Of a stretch of 64,000 nt of DNA, positions 6,202-43,059 are shown one piece after another. The position numbers were made by a program, and so were the translations under genes. The first letter of the stretch is position 1. Every line of letters starts with the position of its first letter. This DNA comes from Methanosarcina flavescens (GTDB lineage: Archaea > Halobacteriota > Methanosarcinia > Methanosarcinales > Methanosarcinaceae), in the NCBI RefSeq assembly GCF_001304615.2, contig NZ_CP032683.1, positions 310,001-374,000 of the forward strand, given 5' to 3'. The notes below the pieces were generated by a model, which searched no databases, was not told the DNA's origin, and worked only from the letters and a program-made list of their open reading frames with translations.

Positions 6202-7425
6202 TTATATTTTATTTTTTGCTACTTCTTTTGCGGCGTCCTTGAAAAGGACTCGAAGGTCCCAGAGCAGTTTTTTATTGGCTTTAAAGAGAGCCTGTAATAA
6301 ATCGAGAAGGTTCATTCTGTCAAATTTTACATCTTTCAGGGAATGGGCAAGGGAGTTCAGGTCATCGTCACTCAGGTTGATAAAGCAATTCTTTACTATG
6401 AGGCTCATGTCAATATCATGCCCTATGGTCGCTCTCCAGCGCTTCTCATAAACCTCTTCAAGTTTCTGGAAGGAAACGTCCCCTGCGGAAATAGCCGCAT
6501 ATGCAGCTTCACCTGCAAGCTTCCCTGCTTCCATAGCGTTCAGGATTCCGCCGCCTGTGATCGGGTCGGATTGACGGGCAGCGTCCCCGATTAGCATTAG
6601 ACCGTTAGCCGACGTTTTCTCAATGCTGCCAGATACCGGGACTCCCCCATAAACCATCTCAATAATTCTAGCATCGGGAAATTTCTTTTCCATAAAGCTG
6701 TTAAGGTAGTCTACAGGCCTTGGCTTGAATTTTCCTGCCCTGCTTCCGAGGATACCAACCCCTACATTGGCTTTGCCTTCGCCCTTAGGAAAGATCCATA
6801 TATAACCACCCGGTGCAATCTCGTTTCCTACATAAAACTCGCAATGGTCCTGGGCTATATCCACTCCAGCTATCAGGTACTGGGTACAGGTTTCTATGTC
6901 TATGGGCTTCAGGGAAGTATCGATGCCTGCCCATCGACCCACCTTTGATTCGATTCCGTCAGCACCTATAACTATCTTGGCACGCACGTCATATGTTTTT
7001 CCCAGATGCATTAGTTTGGCTCCCCTGACGAAACCATCCTCGAGTATGAGGTCAGTTGCTCGGGTTTTTACTCTTACTTCAGCCCCCGCACGGGCAGCCT
7101 GTTCTGCAAGTGCCCTGTCAAACACTTTTCTCTCAAGGACATAGCCTACTTCTCCACCAGAGATTTCTTCTGCCATCTCTATCCTTGTACCGTCTGGGGC
7201 GTAGATGTGAGAAGCTTTAAGGTCCGCGCAAATCCACATTTTGTCAATTTCCACATGTTTCTTGAGGCATTCTTTGCTCACGCCTTCGGCACAGCGTACA
7301 GGATCGCCTATCTCCTGGCGTTTTTCAATTAGAAGTACATCAAGCCCTTTTTCAGCTGCGTTTCTCGCAGCAATGGAACCTGCAGGACCTGCTCCTATTA
7401 CTAGAACATCGTATCTGTCCTTCAT
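6202..7425 (-). CDS. Digeranylgeranylglycerophospholipid (geranylgeranyl) reductase
   Basis: FAD flavoprotein that saturates the isoprenoid chains of archaeal membrane lipids. The N terminus has a dinucleotide-binding motif ([19 protein letters not shown]), followed by [17 protein letters not shown], which carries the PxxCGGV-like Cys segment of the family. [19 protein letters not shown] (about residue 275) is the second FAD contact. The 407 residues match the family. The start ATG overlaps the stop of the upstream ferredoxin gene (ATGA). Family knowledge from M. acetivorans is that this reductase works with the neighbouring small ferredoxin, and the coupling here agrees. The assignment is strong; exact chain-saturation specificity cannot be read from sequence. 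Confidence 0.93.
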
Positions 7426-9340: not shown

Positions 9341-10507
9341 TTACTCTTTACTGCTTATCTTTGCCTTTCCGAAAGCAGGCAATGAGCCTACTTTATTCGA
9401 GAAGCCTGGTTCCACTTTCCGGTAAAGGGTATCTCTCTGTACAGGGATTCTTCCTGCCCCTTTTATCATCCATTCGAACTCGGCAGGAGACATGTATTCT
9501 CCGTGATTCCCTCCAGACGCGGTTGAAATCTGGTCTTCCATAAGCGTGCCTCCTAGATCATTAGCTCCGCACTCGAGGGCAAACTGAGCAAGCTTTTTCC
9601 CGAGTTTAACCCAGGTAGCCTGAATATTATTTATGTGGGTGTGCAGGATTATGCGGGAAATGGCAATGAGCTGCAAGTCTTCAAGCCCTGTGCTTGCGAA
9701 TTTTCCAGATGCTAACATTTTCTCCCCTATCCTGTTATTATGGGGCAAAAAGGACATCGGGATAAACTCTGAAAATCCACCGGTCTCTTTCTGTATTTCG
9801 CGGATAGTAAAAACATGATCAAGACGCTCTTCGACCGTTTCAACATGTCCGTACATAATAGTTGCATTTGTGGAAATTCCGGTTTTATGTGCGGTCTTTA
9901 TAATATCGATCCATTGCTGTGTATTGATTTTTTCGGGACAGATTATATTTCTCACCCTGTCGGAAAGAATTTCAGCTGAAGTTCCGGTAAGGGAATCAAG
10001 CCCGCTTTCTTTAAGCTTACGAAGAGCCTCTTTTATGGACATGCCTGAGATTTTTGCCGCATAGTGTATTTCCATAGGAGAAAAGGCATGAATACAGAGT
10101 TCTGGATATTCAGCTTTTATTGACTCTACAATCTCCAGGTAGAATTCCATGTCAATTTCCGGAATATAACCTCCCTGGATGCAAACCTCAATAACTCCGG
10201 CTTTCCAGGCGTCACCCACCTTTTTCAGGATTTCTTCCACGCTCAGTATATACCCTTTTTCTGTCCTGTAAGCGCAAAATCCGCAATTTCCTGCGCATTT
10301 ATTTGTAATATAAATATTTCTGTTCGTGATATAACTAACAATATCACCTGTGGTACTGGCCCGAAGGTTATCGGCAAGTTCGAATAACTCGAATGGGCTT
10401 CCTTCAAGCAGGATAAGTGCATCCTCTTTTGTGCAGTTTCCCCGATGTGCCCTTTCAAGGACATCATCAGGAATTGCTGCCGGCCTCTTCATGTACATCC
10501 CGATCAT
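9341..10507 (-). CDS. cofH: FO synthase subunit 2 CofH, second copy
   Basis: Radical SAM enzyme that joins 4-hydroxybenzyl from tyrosine to the ribityl-diaminouracil in making the F420 chromophore FO. The [4Fe-4S]-SAM motif is CAGNCGFCAY (CxxxCxxC) at about residue 71, followed by EVCIQGGYIP and INNIQATWVKLG, both typical of CofH. The 388-residue length is normal. ATG codons occur at residues 1, 4 and 6; the second has the best spacing from an AGGA. It follows the other cofH by about 37 nt in the same operon. The two copies are clearly paralogous over their full length, so this one may be redundant or may have another substrate in the CofH/MqnE-like group. Confidence 0.9.
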   Translation of the reverse strand: MIGMYMKRPAAIPDDVLERAHRGNCTKEDALILLEGSPFELFELADNLRASTTGDIVSYITNRNIYITNKCAGNCGFCAYRTEKGYILSVEEILKKVGDAWKAGVIEVCIQGGYIPEIDMEFYLEIVESIKAEYPELCIHAFSPMEIHYAAKISGMSIKEALRKLKESGLDSLTGTSAEILSDRVRNIICPEKINTQQWIDIIKTAHKTGISTNATIMYGHVETVEERLDHVFTIREIQKETGGFSEFIPMSFLPHNNRIGEKMLASGKFASTGLEDLQLIAISRIILHTHINNIQATWVKLGKKLAQFALECGANDLGGTLMEDQISTASGGNHGEYMSPAEFEWMIKGAGRIPVQRDTLYRKVEPGFSNKVGSLPAFGKAKISSKE

Positions 10508-10544
10508 TCCTGTTTATCTGATATATCTATCCCGATAGATAGGC

Positions 10545-11696
10545 TCACTCTGAGACTCTGAACCCTGATCGCCTCGGATTTCCCGAAACCAGCTCATTCA
10601 CTCTTCCGTACAGAGTGGTTCTTTCTTTTGGAACTCTCCCGGCTCCATAGATCATCCACTCGAGTTCTTCTACAGATAGCGCTTCTCCATTAGAGGCTCC
10701 TGCAGACCTTGAAATACTTTCCTCCATAAGGGTACCCCCAAGATCGTTAACCCCACAGTGAAGAGCAAACTGCGCAAGTTTTTTCCCTAACTTCACCCAG
10801 CTTGCCTGAATATTGTCTACGTACCCGTGGAGAAGAATACGAGAAACAGCATAATTCTTAAGATCCTCAAGACCAGGCGTAGCGTATCTACCTTCTCTCA
10901 TTAATTTCTCCCCTACAGGGTTGTTATAAGGCATAAAAGGCAGGGGCACAAATTCCGTAATTCCACCCGTTTCCTTCTGAATTTCCCTGATGATCAATAT
11001 ATGTTCTATCCTTTCTTCAAGAGTTTCGACATGCCCGTACATCATCGTTGCAGTCGTAGGAATGCCTGCGGCATGTGCCTGGGTAACCACCTCTATCCAT
11101 TCCGAGGTTTTGATTTTTGAAGGGCAGATAATCTCCCTTACCCTGTCCGAAAGAATTTCGGCTGCCGTGCCGGGCATGGTGTCAAGCCCGCTTTTTTTAA
11201 GTCTTAGCAGGGCTTCTTTTACAGGGATTCCACTGATACGGGAAGCATGGTAAACCTCCATCGGTGAAAAGGAATGGATATGCATCTCAGGGAATTCGGC
11301 TTTTATGGCTTCTACAATCCCGAGATAAAAGTCAATGCCAGCGTCAGGCAGAAGTCCTCCCTGGATGCAGACTTCAGTAGCATTTGCCTGTGCCGCCTCC
11401 CTTACTTTTCCCATTATTTCTTCAAGGGTCAGAACTTTGCCGTTATTCGTTCTAAATGCGCAGAACCCGCAGGTCCCTACACACTGGCTGGTAAAGTTAA
11501 TATTCCTGTTTACGACGTAAGTAACCATATCCCCTGCTGTAAGGGAGCGGAGTTCATCCGCAAACCTGAAGAGTTCGAAAGGAGGTACCTCAAGGAGTAG
11601 AAGCCCGTCTTCTTTTGTGCTCTTCCCCTGGTATGCGCGTTCTATAAGGTCTTCGGGAATTTTGCTGTTCATTTTTCTAATTCTCCGCATGCCCAT
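10545..11696 (-). CDS. cofH: FO synthase subunit 2 CofH, first copy
   Basis: Same reaction as the downstream paralogue. It has CVGTCGFCAF (the radical SAM CxxxCxxC), EVCIQGGLLPDAG and VDNIQASWVKLG. 383 residues. The ATG begins one base after the cofG stop codon, so cofG and this gene are translationally coupled and probably form the working two-subunit FO synthase of archaea. An alternative start is the ATG at residue 9. Nothing suggests decay in either copy. Confidence 0.92.
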   Translation of the reverse strand: MGMRRIRKMNSKIPEDLIERAYQGKSTKEDGLLLLEVPPFELFRFADELRSLTAGDMVTYVVNRNINFTSQCVGTCGFCAFRTNNGKVLTLEEIMGKVREAAQANATEVCIQGGLLPDAGIDFYLGIVEAIKAEFPEMHIHSFSPMEVYHASRISGIPVKEALLRLKKSGLDTMPGTAAEILSDRVREIICPSKIKTSEWIEVVTQAHAAGIPTTATMMYGHVETLEERIEHILIIREIQKETGGITEFVPLPFMPYNNPVGEKLMREGRYATPGLEDLKNYAVSRILLHGYVDNIQASWVKLGKKLAQFALHCGVNDLGGTLMEESISRSAGASNGEALSVEELEWMIYGAGRVPKERTTLYGRVNELVSGNPRRSGFRVSE

Positions 11697-35874: not shown

Positions 35875-38667
35875 TTGAGTGAGCAGCCAGGGATACATAA
35901 TAAAACTTACAGTCAGGTTTCGGATGAGAGAATAGAGGCCGCAAAGCAGTTGGGAATCTTTTTTGAGGCTTTTCCTGACAGGAGATTGGCTTTTGAAGAT
36001 TTACTAAGGCTTTGTTCTGACAGGGACAGTGCAGTCAGGGAAGAAGCCATCAACTCCCTTGTAACCGTTTTTCCGAATGCCCCGGATAAGGAACTTGTGT
36101 GGAACAAGTTCGTTAATCTGACAGCTTATCCGGCAGAAAATGTAATGAGAGCTGCAGCCAATGCTCTGGTTAGCGTTTTTTCTCTCATGCCGGATAAAGC
36201 CATGGCATGGAGGGATCTTATCGGGCTGATAAGCTCCAGATCAAGCATGGAGGACGTAAATAACGAAATTGTCAATTCGCTTTACTATTTGATAAAAGAA
36301 ATTCCTGATAAAAAGCAGGTATTGAGAGACCTGCTTGCAATGGGAACTTCAGAGTATTCTTATGTGCGGGAAAAGTCGGCTTCATTTTTGAGTCTTGTTT
36401 TCGCGGAACTGACAGATGAGGGAAAAAAAGAAGCCTGGAACGAGGTACTGGAACTGGCTACGGAGTCTGAGGATGAAAAAATCAGGAAACAGGCTGCGCG
36501 TGTTCTTGGAACTGTTTACACCCGGATGCCGGATGAGATGAAGGATGAAACCCTTGAGACTCTGCTGGAACTTGCAGTATCGGGAAATCCTGAGGTTCAG
36601 AGGGAAATCCTTCTGGCTCTACCTTCGGTTTTTTTTCACATCCTGGATAAGAAAAAAGCCTGGGACGATATCCTCAGGCTTACGAGAGACGAGGATGGGC
36701 ATATCCGGAAGCAGGCGATAGATGCCCTGATTTTTATATTTCCTGATATGCCTGACAAGAGAAAGGTCTGGGAAGATTTCCTGAACCTGATAAGGGTCAG
36801 TGACAACCAGGTCAAGAGTGCGGCAGCTGATGCGCTTATATCCTTATTCCCGGGTATGGATAACAAAGGCTCACTCTGGATGGAACTCCTGGAATTCTCA
36901 GGGGATGAGGAGGAAGATATACGGAGCATAGCGGCCTGCATTCTCACAAAGGTTTTCCCATATCTCTCCTTAAGGAGCGAGGCATATTCCGAACTTGTAC
37001 GCCTGGCTGAAACGAAGGAGAGTTCTGTGCTCCGAAAGGTTGTAGATACGCTTATTTCTGCTTATCCCGAACTATGTAATGAACGTGAGGCAAGGGAGTG
37101 GGAAGAGATAGGAAAATATGATTGGAGAGAGCTGGATAAACACCGGAGGAAGTGCAAGTCCGGAGAAGATTACAAATCCAAAGAAGACCGGGAGCTGGGA
37201 GAAGACGATTTCTTCGGAGATAAAGAAAAATCCGAAAAACAGGTTAAGCCCGAAAAAAGAGGTAAGACTGGAGAAGCCTATCAAACTGCATCAGAAAAGG
37301 GTACTTTTCTTCGAAAGGAAGCAACTAATTCCCTGAGTTCTGTCCTCTCCGGGGAAAATGAGGAAAACGGCAGACGACAGGTTAAAGAAAAGGGTCGTAA
37401 CAAGCTTGCCTCCAAAATTGCCAGGACTGAGCCTGACAGCAGGGCATACATACTAAAGAAAGATATGGCTGACCTGTTTGCAGGGTCAGGCTCCATTCCG
37501 GACAGGGAAGAAATTATAAGTAAGCTCATATGCCTGAGTTCTGATCCGGATCCTCAGAGACAAAAAGTTGAAATAGAAGCTCTGCTTGCGGCTTATTCAC
37601 GATATAACGGCAGAGCGCAGGATATCTGGGGCGAACTCCTTGAGTTGACCGGGGATGAGGACACAGGCACCAGAAGGGATGCTGCAGACCTGCTTACGAA
37701 TATCTTTCCGGCAGTAGAGGATAAATCTGTAATTTTTTATGACCTTGTCAGGCTTACTGAAAGCCAGGATGCCCAGATCCGTAAAAGAGCAGCAGAACTT
37801 CTTGCTGCCGCTTTTGCTTACTCTGAAAATAAGCAGGCAGCCTGGAACGAACTTATCAAGCTCGTGTCCGTTGAAGACCGAGAAGTCAGGAAAGGGGCTG
37901 TTCTCGCTCTATCTTCAGGCTTTGCAGAGGTTCCAGATAAAGGAAAAGCCTGGATGGATCTGGTAAGGCTTTCTGATCATAGCGATAGTTTTGTGCAGAG
38001 GACGGCGGCACATGTGCTTGGATCTGCCTTTTTCCATGTACCGGACAAAACCCAGGCCTGGAGGGACTTGAAGACGCTTACTGACAAGCCGTACATTTAT
38101 GTTCGAAGGTATGCTCTTCGTTCCCTTGGAAAAGCTTCCCTCTGGAGGTCATTGAGGGCGGAAAACGAGGCAACTTACATTTTTGGGTTAAAAGAAGCGG
38201 TCAATTACTTTAAAGAGGCATCCGAAGCTTCTATAGGCTTCCATATTCCTGAATTCTATTATCATTTCTATCAGGCTCTGTTATTCATCCTTTTCAGCGA
38301 CAGACCTAGCATAGCAAGAATTGAGAGCGAGAAATACCTCTCAAAAATGGCTGAAGAAATCAGCAGTGAAGATAAAAAATTACTTGGAATTTTTGAACAG
38401 TTTGCAGAACTTCTCACACGTGCTGGAAAACTCAGCCCTGGCGACCTGTCCGGGCAAAAAAAGCTTCTTCAAAACTCTATTCAAACTTTTGATACATATT
38501 CAGCGCTTTTAGAGAATAAAGAAGAGGAAGTTATTTTTACTCAGAAAACTGCGAAAAAAGAAAAGCCTGTAAAAAAAGAATACTCAAACCTTGGAAAAGC
38601 CCTTCTGGAACGGGTTGAGCAAAAGAAGTCATCCTTAACAAAAGACCGCAAGAAAAAAAGGTTCTGA
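35875..38667 (+). CDS. Large HEAT/PBS-lyase-type repeat protein
   Basis: 930 residues, TTG start with GGTGG upstream. Residues ~10-400 and ~540-760 are repeats of 35-38 residues with the consensus PDKxxAWxDLxxLxxxxDxxVRxxAAxxLxxxF, each a pair of helices. Residues ~400-540 form a highly charged, probably disordered linker rich in Lys and Glu. The last ~160 residues are helical and end in a Lys/Arg-rich tail (KSSLTKDRKKKRF). No enzymatic motif. Such proteins are usually scaffolds; long repeat proteins of this kind are common in Methanosarcina. It differs in repeat sequence from the minus-strand neighbour. Confidence 0.82.
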   Translation: MSEQPGIHNKTYSQVSDERIEAAKQLGIFFEAFPDRRLAFEDLLRLCSDRDSAVREEAINSLVTVFPNAPDKELVWNKFVNLTAYPAENVMRAAANALVSVFSLMPDKAMAWRDLIGLISSRSSMEDVNNEIVNSLYYLIKEIPDKKQVLRDLLAMGTSEYSYVREKSASFLSLVFAELTDEGKKEAWNEVLELATESEDEKIRKQAARVLGTVYTRMPDEMKDETLETLLELAVSGNPEVQREILLALPSVFFHILDKKKAWDDILRLTRDEDGHIRKQAIDALIFIFPDMPDKRKVWEDFLNLIRVSDNQVKSAAADALISLFPGMDNKGSLWMELLEFSGDEEEDIRSIAACILTKVFPYLSLRSEAYSELVRLAETKESSVLRKVVDTLISAYPELCNEREAREWEEIGKYDWRELDKHRRKCKSGEDYKSKEDRELGEDDFFGDKEKSEKQVKPEKRGKTGEAYQTASEKGTFLRKEATNSLSSVLSGENEENGRRQVKEKGRNKLASKIARTEPDSRAYILKKDMADLFAGSGSIPDREEIISKLICLSSDPDPQRQKVEIEALLAAYSRYNGRAQDIWGELLELTGDEDTGTRRDAADLLTNIFPAVEDKSVIFYDLVRLTESQDAQIRKRAAELLAAAFAYSENKQAAWNELIKLVSVEDREVRKGAVLALSSGFAEVPDKGKAWMDLVRLSDHSDSFVQRTAAHVLGSAFFHVPDKTQAWRDLKTLTDKPYIYVRRYALRSLGKASLWRSLRAENEATYIFGLKEAVNYFKEASEASIGFHIPEFYYHFYQALLFILFSDRPSIARIESEKYLSKMAEEISSEDKKLLGIFEQFAELLTRAGKLSPGDLSGQKKLLQNSIQTFDTYSALLENKEEEVIFTQKTAKKEKPVKKEYSNLGKALLERVEQKKSSLTKDRKKKRF

Positions 38668-39426: not shown

Positions 39427-39627
39427 AGACTCTTTTTTATTTGCTATCTTTTTTATTTACTACCTTTTTACTCTCTTTTTTATTGCTTTTACAGTTTTCT
39501 GCTGATTTTTACTGCTCTTTACCGTTTTGATCTTCTAGTACTTAATATATATTCTGATATTTAATTATCTTTCAATATTCTTACTATCTTGAAAAACTAC
39601 AGTGATACTTTGTCTAGAGAAAAGATT
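39427..39627. other. AT-rich spacer
   Basis: Nothing but T-rich low-complexity sequence. On the minus strand this lies downstream of the first RNA unit, where the T run in AATCTTTTCTC could end its transcript. Confidence 0.35.
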
Positions 39628-39821
39628 GCGTTCTCATCTGGAAATTTCTGGAAGTTCCGAACGGCACTTATCAGGTCTTGTTCAGGAAGAGGTGTGGCAC
39701 TGGACTCACGGGTTGCGAGCTTTTTATCTTGTCTCTTCACTTTTCTAGTAATTTTTCGGAGTAGGCGTTGAAGTATTTCTTGTGGAATAGGTCTTGCTAT
39801 GTGGTCTTGCGATGAGAACGC
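39628..39821 (-). ncRNA. Candidate structured RNA gene, copy A (about 194 nt)
   Basis: Minus strand. The unit begins GCGTTCTCATC and ends GATGAGAACGC, an 11 bp perfect closing stem. A TATA box (ATTATATAT, plus 39843-39851) is centred about 26 nt before the first base, the archaeal promoter distance. A second copy at 40357-40542 has the same ends, the same promoter spacing and conserved internal blocks, notably CCGTTCGGAACTTCCAG near the 3' end and ACCTCTTCC before it. No coding frame is conserved between the copies. I read this as a structured RNA; a MITE-like repeat is the alternative. I do not recognise an Rfam family. Confidence 0.6.
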
Positions 39822-39834
39822 AAATTATACTATG

Positions 39835-39860
39835 TTCGCACCATATATAATATTTTTAAC
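39835..39860 (-). promoter_or_regulatory. TATA/BRE promoter of RNA copy A
   Basis: On the minus strand: GTTAAAAATATTATATAT, with a purine-rich BRE before the TATA core. The same string is upstream of copy B at identical spacing. Confidence 0.6.
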
Positions 39861-40356
39861 ACATAATGTTATTTAAACTACTTTTTCTTAGTATAAGATT
39901 CTAATCTTTTTTCACCAACCTAACCTTATAGCATTGAACTACCTGAGAACCGCTGCCCGAGTCACCACCCGAGTCGCTGTTTTTTCTGAAAGTTTACGAT
40001 AAAACCTTTTCTCAGAAGGTTTTCGCTCAAGCCTTTTTTGAGAAGGCTCGTGATCAAACTTTTTAGAAAAAGGTTCATACCAAGTTTTTTAAGGAGGCCT
40101 GTTAAAAGGCTTGCAGGATCCGGGCAAAAATAAGTAAAATTTCTGTCCAAAAATAAGCCCTCTTGAGCGAACAAAGTGAGCGAAAAGGGCAGCGTGCTCC
40201 CGAGGCGCAATTCGGGCGAGACGGATCTCGGGCAGCGCCTCGGGCGATGATTCGGGATTTGATCAAAAATCAGCATGACGGCGTGATCGACCGGCACAAT
40301 GGTCGTGGTTAAACAGTTTATCCTGAGGATTCTAAAATCTCTTTTAAAATGAGGTA
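39861..40356. repeat. Spacer with palindromic repeats between the two RNA units
   Basis: 39990-40110 holds inverted copies of the AAGCCTTTT/AAAAGGCTT hairpin family, ending in GTTTTCGCTCAAGCC, plus AAACTTTTT hairpins. 40150-40340 is a GC-rich repeat (GTGCTCCCGAGGCGCAATTC, CGGCGTGATCGACCGGCAC) related to sequence at 44766-44830 and 9236-9335. A 134-codon frame across it is repeat-derived and not a gene. Confidence 0.6.
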
Positions 40357-40542
40357 GCGTTCTCACCGAAATCCTGGGAGTTCCGAACGGTGTTCAAGAG
40401 ACTCACTTCTCTCTAGCTGGGGAAGAGGTATTGAGGCATTTTAATTCATGGAATGTGAGTTTCTCTTTTTATCCCTTTACAGTGGAGTAATGTCCTGAAG
40501 TAGGTGTTATTTGCTAGTGGGGTATTAAAAAGATGAGAACGC
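40357..40542 (-). ncRNA. Candidate structured RNA gene, copy B (about 186 nt)
   Basis: Same organisation as copy A: starts GCGTTCTCATC and ends GGTGAGAACGC (10 of 11 bases pair canonically, with the remaining position able to form G-T). The TATA core at plus 40565-40572 is again about 26 nt upstream. Shared internal blocks are ACTAGCAAA/ATAGCAAG near the 5' end, GATAAAAAG in the middle, ATACCTCTTCC and CACCGTTCGGAACT towards the 3' end. Intervening sequence has diverged, as expected for an RNA conserving structure. Confidence 0.6.
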
Positions 40543-40555
40543 AGATTATACTATG

Positions 40556-40581
40556 CACTTATTGTATATAATATTTTTAAC
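40556..40581 (-). promoter_or_regulatory. TATA/BRE promoter of RNA copy B
   Basis: Minus strand GTTAAAAATATTATATAC, the same as at copy A apart from the last base. Confidence 0.6.
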
Positions 40582-40632
40582 AGTTAATATTATTTCATTT
40601 ATTTTTTTTTGTATACCTTTCTAACCTCAGTT

Positions 40633-40690
40633 CATTGATCTAATGCTTATCTCATTGATCTAATGCTTATCTCATTGATCTAATAGTTAT
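40633..40690. repeat. 20-bp tandem repeat, nearly three units
   Basis: CATTGATCTAATGCTTATCT occurs at 40633-40652 and 40653-40672, with an 18 bp diverged third unit to 40690. Confidence 0.85.
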
Positions 40691-41025
40691 ATTATTACAC
40701 GAACTGTGCATCAAACCGAAGAAAAAAATCTCAACTATTAGACACTTAAAACTGGTTTCAGGGCAGCTCCAGAATATAACGTTACGGGGAATAGAATATT
40801 TGCATTTCGATATGTTAGAACGTGTAACATGTCAGGTGCAATATTTTCTGCAGTCGTTTGAGAGACCAAAGATCTCTTCTCTGTAGGTTGCTGGCATGGT
40901 ACCAGCAAATCAATATGTATCTTTGACTTCCTTGATAGATCCTGGCACATATATTGATCTTATTCAAAGTCCAGTGTTGTATAGGACATCCAGTTTACGT
41001 AGATACCTAGGCTTGTGAAGAATAT
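40691..41025. other. Spacer without a supported gene
   Basis: A 70-codon minus-strand frame (40738-40950) has no ribosome site and no recognisable domain; it might be a decayed fragment. Nothing else stands out. Confidence 0.35.
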
Positions 41026-41784
41026 TCACTCTTGAATTATTCCATCTTTTAACCTTATTATCCTGTCTGCATAATCAGCATGCCATTCTTCATGGGTAAC
41101 CATTACAATGGTCTGCCCCTGTTCCTTGTTGAATTTTTTAAAGAGGTCAAGGACTTCCTTTGAAGTCTGGGAGTCCAGGTTGGCACAGGGCTCGTCTGCA
41201 AAAAGGACTCTTGGGGAGTGGGCAAGAGCCCGAGCTATTGAAACTCTTTGTTGCTGGCCTCCACTCATTTTGGAGGGAAGCTGCTGCAGGCGGTCTCCAA
41301 GTCCAACTGCGGTAAGAATTTCTGCGGCTGTGGTTTCGCATTCGGCTTTGCTCTTTCCCTGCATCATGAGGGAGATATAGACATTTTCCGAAGCATTGAG
41401 TTCGGGAAGAAGGGCATAGTCCTGAAAGACATAACCCAGGTTACGAAGCCGGAATTTGCCTTTCTCACTGTCGGACATGCGTGAGGTATCCGTGCCTTCT
41501 ATAATGACTTTTCCCGAGTTTGGAGTATCAAGCAAACCAAGCTGGTTTAAAAGGGTTGTCTTCCCTGAGCCGCTAGGGCCCATGATTGCAATAAAATCTC
41601 CATGTGCAATTCTTACATTTACGCCGCGAAGGGCACGAACCTGTACCTCTCCCATCCTGAAGGTGCGCACTATATCGATGCCCTCAATGATCGGAACCTG
41701 TGCAGGTAGGTTAAGGTTCTGGGTTATGGTCTTACCCTCGTTTTCTTTTTCAGGCACAATTCCGGCTTTTGTCAGAGATTCCAT
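41026..41784 (-). CDS. ABC transporter ATP-binding protein, MacB/LolD type
   Basis: ATPase of a three-gene exporter. Walker A GPSGSGKTTLLN (about residue 73), signature MSGGQQQRVSIARAL (about 172), Walker B VLFADEPCANLD and the switch VMVTHEE. The N terminus has a ~30 residue extension before the core. The 252-residue length and sequence EVQVRALRGVNVRI place it in the LolD/MacB family that works with FtsX-type permeases rather than classical solute importers. Last gene of the operon; the permease gene ends 16 bp upstream. Confidence 0.92.
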   Translation of the reverse strand: MESLTKAGIVPEKENEGKTITQNLNLPAQVPIIEGIDIVRTFRMGEVQVRALRGVNVRIAHGDFIAIMGPSGSGKTTLLNQLGLLDTPNSGKVIIEGTDTSRMSDSEKGKFRLRNLGYVFQDYALLPELNASENVYISLMMQGKSKAECETTAAEILTAVGLGDRLQQLPSKMSGGQQQRVSIARALAHSPRVLFADEPCANLDSQTSKEVLDLFKKFNKEQGQTIVMVTHEEWHADYADRIIRLKDGIIQE

Positions 41785-41799
41785 TTTTTCACCTCAGTT

Positions 41800-43005
41800 T
41801 CACTTTTCCCAGATAAGTTCCAGGAGATTTTTATTTGCCAGTCTATATGCAGGGATTACAGAACCCACCACTGAAGCCAAGAAAAGTAGTATAGCGCGAT
41901 TTAAGGCTTCAAGGCTATCCAGCTCCAAACTGATCGCTCCTGCCGGAACCTGTAGAGGATGGGAAACCGTGTACGGGACGATTCCGTAATTCATCAGTAT
42001 GTAACCGAAAATCACACCCGCACCTGCATAAAGCATTGCCTGAAGGACAAAGGAACCTATTATTACGTTTTGCTCGATCCCTATCGCTTTCTGAACACCT
42101 ATTTGTCTTTTTTTATTTACAATATTGACGTAGATAACTACAAAAATTATAACAAAAGCTATCAGTAGACCTATCAAGTTCATAATGTTCCTAACCATCC
42201 CCAGAGTGTCTTCTATCATGCCCAGTATACCGGCAAATTCCCTCCAGGTGCGGACATTTTCTCCTATCCCGAGAGAAAAGAGTTTCTCTCGGGTTACGGT
42301 CTCGTCCGTACCTGGGATAGTCCTGACAGCAATTTCCTGAGCCAGATCTTGGTTCTGTATGCCGAGCATTTCCTCCATGTCAGCTCTGGTTATATAGGCA
42401 CCAGCATCGATCATAAAAAAGAGAGTGCTATAGATTCCCTTAACCCTGAACTCTTTAGTCCTACCCTGGATTGTGACCTCAACTCTGTCTCCGACTTCTA
42501 CACCACCAAGGGAACGAGATTCCATCAGGCCTCCAAAGCCTCCTGAAACTTCCCTGCCCAGTATGATTTCGCCCCTATCCGGTTTGCTTAAGAACTCTCC
42601 ACTTATCATAGCTCCTTCAAGACCCGTGACAAAGCTCTCTTCCGTCGGGTTTACGCCGTATACAGTAGCTCCCATTTCTTTTTCCTTGTAGCGGAAGGAG
42701 CCCGATGACTTCAGGCGAGCAGAAGTCCCTGTGACCTCAGGTAAACTTTCGATTTTTTTCTGTAGAGCGGAAGCGTCTTCAATATATCTTTGCTCTTCTC
42801 TGGGTTCGATTACAACGTCTCCGGTCTGGAAGTCTACAAGGAGCTTGTTGAATTGTGCCGTAACTCCTGCAAGTATGGTTGAAAAGAGCACAAGTTGCAC
42901 AAAGATCAGGGTCAGGACAAAGACCGTAAAGATCGTAATCCCTTTATTGCCCCTGATTATGGAGCGGCTGGCAAGGAAGAAGGAAACTCTCGCTTTCTCG
43001 AGCAT
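41800..43005 (-). CDS. FtsX/MacB-type ABC permease
   Basis: 401 residues. One N-terminal transmembrane helix, a large extracellular MacB-like periplasmic-core domain (about 60-270), then three helices at the C terminus, the FtsX arrangement. FVIIFVVIYVNIVNKKRQIG and KAIGIEQNVIIGSFVLQAM are typical. I start at ATG 43005, where AAAGGATG has correct spacing; an ATG at 43014 is too close to it. Such transporters export peptides or lipoproteins or transmit force; the substrate is unknown. Confidence 0.9.
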   Translation of the reverse strand: MLEKARVSFFLASRSIIRGNKGITIFTVFVLTLIFVQLVLFSTILAGVTAQFNKLLVDFQTGDVVIEPREEQRYIEDASALQKKIESLPEVTGTSARLKSSGSFRYKEKEMGATVYGVNPTEESFVTGLEGAMISGEFLSKPDRGEIILGREVSGGFGGLMESRSLGGVEVGDRVEVTIQGRTKEFRVKGIYSTLFFMIDAGAYITRADMEEMLGIQNQDLAQEIAVRTIPGTDETVTREKLFSLGIGENVRTWREFAGILGMIEDTLGMVRNIMNLIGLLIAFVIIFVVIYVNIVNKKRQIGVQKAIGIEQNVIIGSFVLQAMLYAGAGVIFGYILMNYGIVPYTVSHPLQVPAGAISLELDSLEALNRAILLFLASVVGSVIPAYRLANKNLLELIWEK

Positions 43006-43059
43006 AACAGGCATCCTTTAGGGTTAATAATATTTTTCGGTTTTTTTAATCTCCGCATC

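Follow-up and report, generated by a model that had tools for sequence, protein, structure and literature searches.

In Y RNAs the two ends are paired in a stem, the loop is pyrimidine-rich and the 3′ end is U-rich; in the CsrB/RsmZ RNAs, the motif read by CsrA is a GGA in hairpin loops. Few archaeal regulatory RNAs have been characterised, and most known multicopy families that combine a common promoter with an open motif loop come from bacteria. The LhrC1-5 RNAs of Listeria are near-identical copies under common control, 111-114 nt long and G-poor, that combine stem-loops with a terminator hairpin, carry a repeated single-stranded C-rich motif and act on known targets such as lapB (PMC4132741). 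In Methanosarcina mazei, sRNA162 and sRNA171 are two homologous intergenic RNAs with their own promoter, a length of 191 nt and three serial stem-loops with a single-stranded linker; sRNA162 adjoins an ArsR-family gene, and M. acetivorans and M. barkeri are the only species for which BLAST homologs are reported (PMC3510493).

Here we describe a family of small RNA genes identified in a 64,000-nt stretch of the Methanosarcina flavescens genome (the window; contig NZ_CP032683.1, positions 310,001 to 374,000). The LhrC RNAs come nearest to it in logic, sharing multiple copies, a G-poor composition and a repeated single-stranded C-rich motif, and we liken their near-identity and common control to those of our family; the family is archaeal rather than bacterial, however, and has one end-joining stem in place of stem-loops and a terminator. 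The M. mazei pair comes from the same genus and resembles the family in length, copy relationship, intergenic position, promoter and linker, but differs in its serial stem-loops, as the family consensus has a single closing stem; this comparison is by description, not by sequence, and none of the annotated neighbours at the other places occupied by the family is an ArsR gene. The likeness to CsrB/RsmZ is in logic only, a repeated short single-stranded motif and several copies in some genomes; the C-rich interior of our RNAs, with 11% G, and its enriched motifs, CYAYUYC and ACCUNYUCC, tend to speak against membership. We found no paper describing the family, though the 2009 M. mazei transcriptome tables may list single transcripts.

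Comparative sequence analysis makes it very likely that the two units in the window, A and B, are genes of a multicopy, vertically inherited small noncoding RNA family of Methanosarcina. A first-pass annotation had proposed two minus-strand units at 39,628-39,821 and 40,357-40,542, and both are borne out, with ends refined to 39627-39822 for A (196 nt, closing stem end to end) and 40356-40543 for B (188 nt); all features of A and B given below lie on the same strand. They are flanked by a HEAT-repeat gene (35875-38667, plus strand) and an ABC transporter operon (41026-43014, minus strand). The similarity between A and B is far above chance (BLAST, E = 4e-14), and the internal blocks CCGTTCGGAACT, ACCTCTTCC and GATAAAAAG are found in both in the order originally described. 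A further 79 nt of 5′ flank, including GTTAAAAATATTATATA, is common to the two at 80% identity. The twin units stand as a pair, but not as a total of two, as the M. flavescens genome holds four copies; C (C1:1151784-1151962) and D (202901-203083) were found with BLAST and a covariance model.

Rfam 15 gives no match at A or B; at a relaxed threshold the best score is a chance match of 15 bits, where the cut-off is 50. A covariance-model search, which the first-pass annotation had recommended, was run with a model of 39 copies in which the closing stem is the sole structure; A and B match it with E-values of 3e-35 and 8.5e-23, respectively, both being members of its seed. Each of the 31 Methanosarcina genomes searched yields between 1 and 11 matches, ≈130 copies in total, and almost all of them span the full length (≈150-205 nt). 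The earlier suggestion of a new RNA gene family is thereby supported, with promoter, stem and U-rich flank all kept. Across the order, 35 of 186 genomes match, comprising Methanosarcina and all four genomes of one sister genus; nothing passes E 0.01 in the remaining 25 genera, in a search filtered more strictly at the cost of some weak matches. In a pattern scan of named genomes the matches come from Methanosarcina and a few "Euryarchaeota" bins, apart from some in single bacteria that look fortuitous.

Inheritance follows the locus. Syntenic places recur across species, namely the A/B place, a place between cobW-like and radical SAM genes, and a third, often occupied by tandem copies, 3′ of an FAD-dependent oxidoreductase gene; in a tree the copies cluster largely by locus. 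The neighbouring genes differ from place to place and give no functional hint. Among class A orthologs (n = 14), the RNA shows 93% mean pairwise identity compared with 48% in the flank 21-45 nt downstream, a difference which argues that selection acts on the RNA.

An archaeal promoter at fixed spacing and a U-rich 3′ flank are present in the family over 114 distinct copies. The TATA box that had been noted upstream of both units is there, centred at about -27 to -29 rather than the proposed ≈26 nt; in A it lies in TAAAAATATTATATA, -36 to -22 (39844..39858), a near-invariant region in which information across the 114 copies reaches 1.93 bits per base, and the corresponding region of B is at 40565..40579. 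A second promoter element missed by the first-pass annotation, TAGTATAA, occupies positions -10 to -3 in A (39825..39832) and B (40546..40553), is near-invariant across the 114 copies and is conserved at least as well as the TATA box. Such a near-invariant element at this position is unusual, and it suggests that one signal governs all copies. We considered it as a commonly used promoter element and rejected this, because at two mismatches it is no more frequent in the rest of the genome than a reversed control. Directly after the stem lie U-rich tracts, AUCUUUUCU in A (39617..39626) and ACCUCAUUUU in B (40346..40355), which are probable terminators, and T is enriched at +4 to +9 past the stem across the 114 copies. 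From these signals we infer that A and B would be transcribed as discrete RNAs terminating at the U-rich tract. In class C promoters (e.g., L080, L086 and L089), AACATTATGTGTTA sits ≈11 bp further upstream than in class A, as a movable operator (TAACA-N5-TGTTA) might.

The complementary ends reported for the units prove to be a perfect 13-nt inverted repeat in A. The paired ends of A (39627-39822) form 12 bp between UGCGUUCUCAUC (39811..39822) and GAUGAGAACGCA (39627..39638), while those of B form 11 bp between UGCGUUCUCAUC (40532..40543) and GGUGAGAACGCU (40356..40367); the one end position that differs in B is a U-G wobble that retains pairing, and its outermost pair is a U-U mismatch. Over the 114 distinct copies, standard pairs make up 98.6% of stem cells, and pairing is lost when the partner strand is slid by any 1-3 columns. 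Read on the minus strand, the variation comprises 130 G-U cells but only 3 A-C cells; were the opposite strand the RNA, those 130 cells would turn into mispairs. Double-changed cells number 8, compared with 2.1 in shuffles, and occur at pair 2 (G-C to A-U), pair 6 (U-A to C-G) and pair 11 (U-A to C-G). Compensatory changes, which had been named in advance as the kind of support to look for, are thus present but few, because the stem sequence itself is conserved beyond the needs of pairing. That stem changes are nearly all minus-strand G-U wobbles, with few double changes, indicates that the family acts as RNA, in the predicted direction.

The interior behaves differently. Measured against dinucleotide shuffles, the folding energies of A and B have z-scores of -2.9 and -2.5, but the interior without the stem has a mean z of only -0.25, compared with -2.9 for the whole RNA, and RNAalifold on 39 diverse copies returns the closing stem as the sole conserved structure. 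Small hairpins (such as CUCGC-AACCC-GUGAG) appear in some classes and are absent from others, and no further conserved hairpin was found. The proposal of a structured RNA thus holds for the RNA and its closing stem, but not for the interior, which folds no better than shuffles. The interior is nonetheless conserved. Its bases are A (39%), C (27%), U (23%) and G (11%), C outnumbers G in every one of the 114 copies, and ACCUACUCC/ACCUCUUCC motifs are repeated. Over the 114 copies, CYAYUYC occurs 1.21 times per copy (0.19 in shuffles), ACCUNYUCC 1.10 times (0.03) and UUCGGAA 0.61 times (0.01; present in 69 copies), an overall enrichment of 6 to >30 times that is descriptive and not a test, since the shuffle controls ignore the kinship of copies. 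Motif enrichment over dinucleotide shuffles marks the C-rich arrays of A (GACCUAUUCC..UACUUC..CCUACUCCG; 39757..39793) and B (CCCCACUAG..ACCUACUUC..UUACUCC; 40482..40523), and the array of A recurs with little or no change in class A orthologs. These are followed by the ACCUCUUCC block (39685..39693 in A, 40421..40429 in B), with CUCUUC in 96 of 114 copies, and by blocks marked by the UUCGGAA enrichment, CCGUUCGGAACUUCCAG in A (39643..39664, just ahead of the 3′ stem strand) and CCGUUCGGAACUCCCAG in B (40369..40390). Tandem ACCUACUCC units vary from about 1 to 4 among orthologs of one clade.

A MITE or other mobile inverted-repeat element would also present terminal inverted repeats and multiple copies in a genome, in part tandem, but the homology runs ≈60 nt past the inverted repeat into the promoter, as that of a MITE would not, copy number is low, and the stem changes are biased to the G-U wobbles of one strand. 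Nor did we see the dispersed copies without TATA boxes that the first-pass annotation took to signify a MITE; essentially all copies have a TATA box, the loci are fixed and syntenic genus-wide, and descent is by locus, so that we reject a mobile origin as having next to no likelihood. A leaderless small-protein mRNA, in which translation of a short ORF (LRSH...) would begin at the TTG spanning -1 to +2, draws on the presence of that TTG in 103 of 114 copies and on the leaderless sORF reported for sRNA154 of M. mazei (PMC11456600). The closing stem explains the conserved TTG, however; the length of the frame varies between 0 and 68 codons, indels do not respect the triplet phase (class A lengths are mixed modulo 3), and shared codons are limited to those in the stem. 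No reading frame is kept across the family, as had been noted for A and B, and a small-protein gene, very improbable on this evidence, was likewise rejected. Conserved loci, vertical descent and the lack of a kept frame together make the family neither a MITE nor a small-protein gene.

Its function is probably regulatory, as we infer from this architecture. In the account that we favour, to which we assign a probability of roughly 0.45, the RNA gene family is combined with a decoy or scaffold mechanism. Each gene would be transcribed from its own TATA promoter with the shared -10 element, and the transcript would probably end in the U-rich tract past the stem. Its ends would then pair, the sequence-conserved 12-bp stem shutting off a long, G-poor, C/A-rich and mostly single-stranded interior that displays the repeated ACCUACUCC/ACCUCUUCC-type motifs. 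The RNA would serve as a ribonucleoprotein decoy or scaffold that the stem protects or positions, with the C-rich motifs as binding sites for an RNA-binding protein, in one copy or several, which might thereby be titrated as by the CsrB/RsmZ RNAs; the dose would come from having multiple genes with the same type of promoter. By analogy with those RNAs, protein titration may be the main action, a proposal that we hold at somewhat less than even odds. Variation in ACCUACUCC repeat number is as expected for a modular protein-binding motif; on the other hand, the family motifs match none of the known titrating RNAs tested, and antisense sRNAs carry such motif arrays too. More tentative is the extension to genus-wide archaeal titrating RNAs, in which C-rich motif arrays in a closed loop, expressed from multiple genes with one dedicated promoter type and its fixed -10 element, sequester a global RNA-binding protein. 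If true, the Csr/Rsm logic would have an archaeal equivalent in this family, built around a different protein.

Those same arrays might instead belong to a multicopy antisense sRNA of the LhrC/RsaE type, whose C-rich motifs mask purine-rich ribosome-binding sites and block translation, and we regard this as a serious possibility that nonetheless falls well short of even. The LhrC RNAs, multicopy and G-poor, block a Shine-Dalgarno sequence with a repeated CU-rich motif (PMC4132741), and known Methanosarcina sRNAs cover ribosome-binding sites via single-stranded linkers (PMC3510493), with sRNA162 and sRNA41 of M. mazei as models of such blocking. The motifs of our family are not plain anti-Shine-Dalgarno sequences (CCUCC), however. 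A first test on 55 ribosome-binding-site regions gave an apparent z of -2.5 to -3 for three of the four copies; with 294 regions, the advantage of A and B over shuffled loops is slight (z of -1.8 and -2.1), A pairs equally well with in-gene regions (z of -2.2), C and D show no preference (-0.7 and +0.3), and an early strong match proved to be an ORF that is overlapped by a longer antisense gene. As the signal largely vanished with the larger set and the in-gene control, general anti-Shine-Dalgarno action was not supported, and the weakness of the pairing preference tips us slightly towards protein titration over antisense action. A catalytic or housekeeping ribonucleoprotein RNA (6S-like, Y-RNA-like or a guide RNA) with a dedicated enzyme or chaperone partner seems unlikely. 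The closing stem, pyrimidine-rich loop and U-rich end do recall Y RNA architecture, and conservation of the stem sequence beyond pairing fits such a partner, but the family has no similarity in the Rfam scan and is limited to Methanosarcina and one sister genus. A TROVE (Ro) protein was found in 0 of 186 genomes of the order by a search that was positive in the control Deinobacterium, and a Y RNA with a Ro partner was therefore rejected.

Several observations concern the surroundings of the family. Tandem arrays of 2-3 copies ≈0.5-1.3 kb apart occur in L109 and L124 (both of the sister genus) and in L102, L084 and L103, and the two identical tandem copies in L109 suggest a recent local duplication. 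The Methanosarcina genome with the most matches (11) is G017, a bog metagenome bin, which also holds a closely related pair of a divergent class (L107:4070-4259 and 10446-10605). Next to the cobW-like gene, and to either side of it in some genomes, lies a protein of ≈100 aa without a Pfam match (L074:2280-2588; L083:4508-4813 and 6288-6596). Within the window, a degenerate repeat region (AAAAGGCTTGAGCGAAAACCTTCT...) lies between A and B at about 39962-40200, and the 15-mer GAGCGAAAACCTTCT, found 10 times in the genome at ≤1 mismatch compared with 0 in the reversed control, is a dispersed repeat. Upstream of B, ≈50-115 bp from its TATA box, TCATTGATCTAATGCTTATC occurs as three direct copies of a 20-bp unit (40632-40696) that are not seen before A and are possible binding sites.
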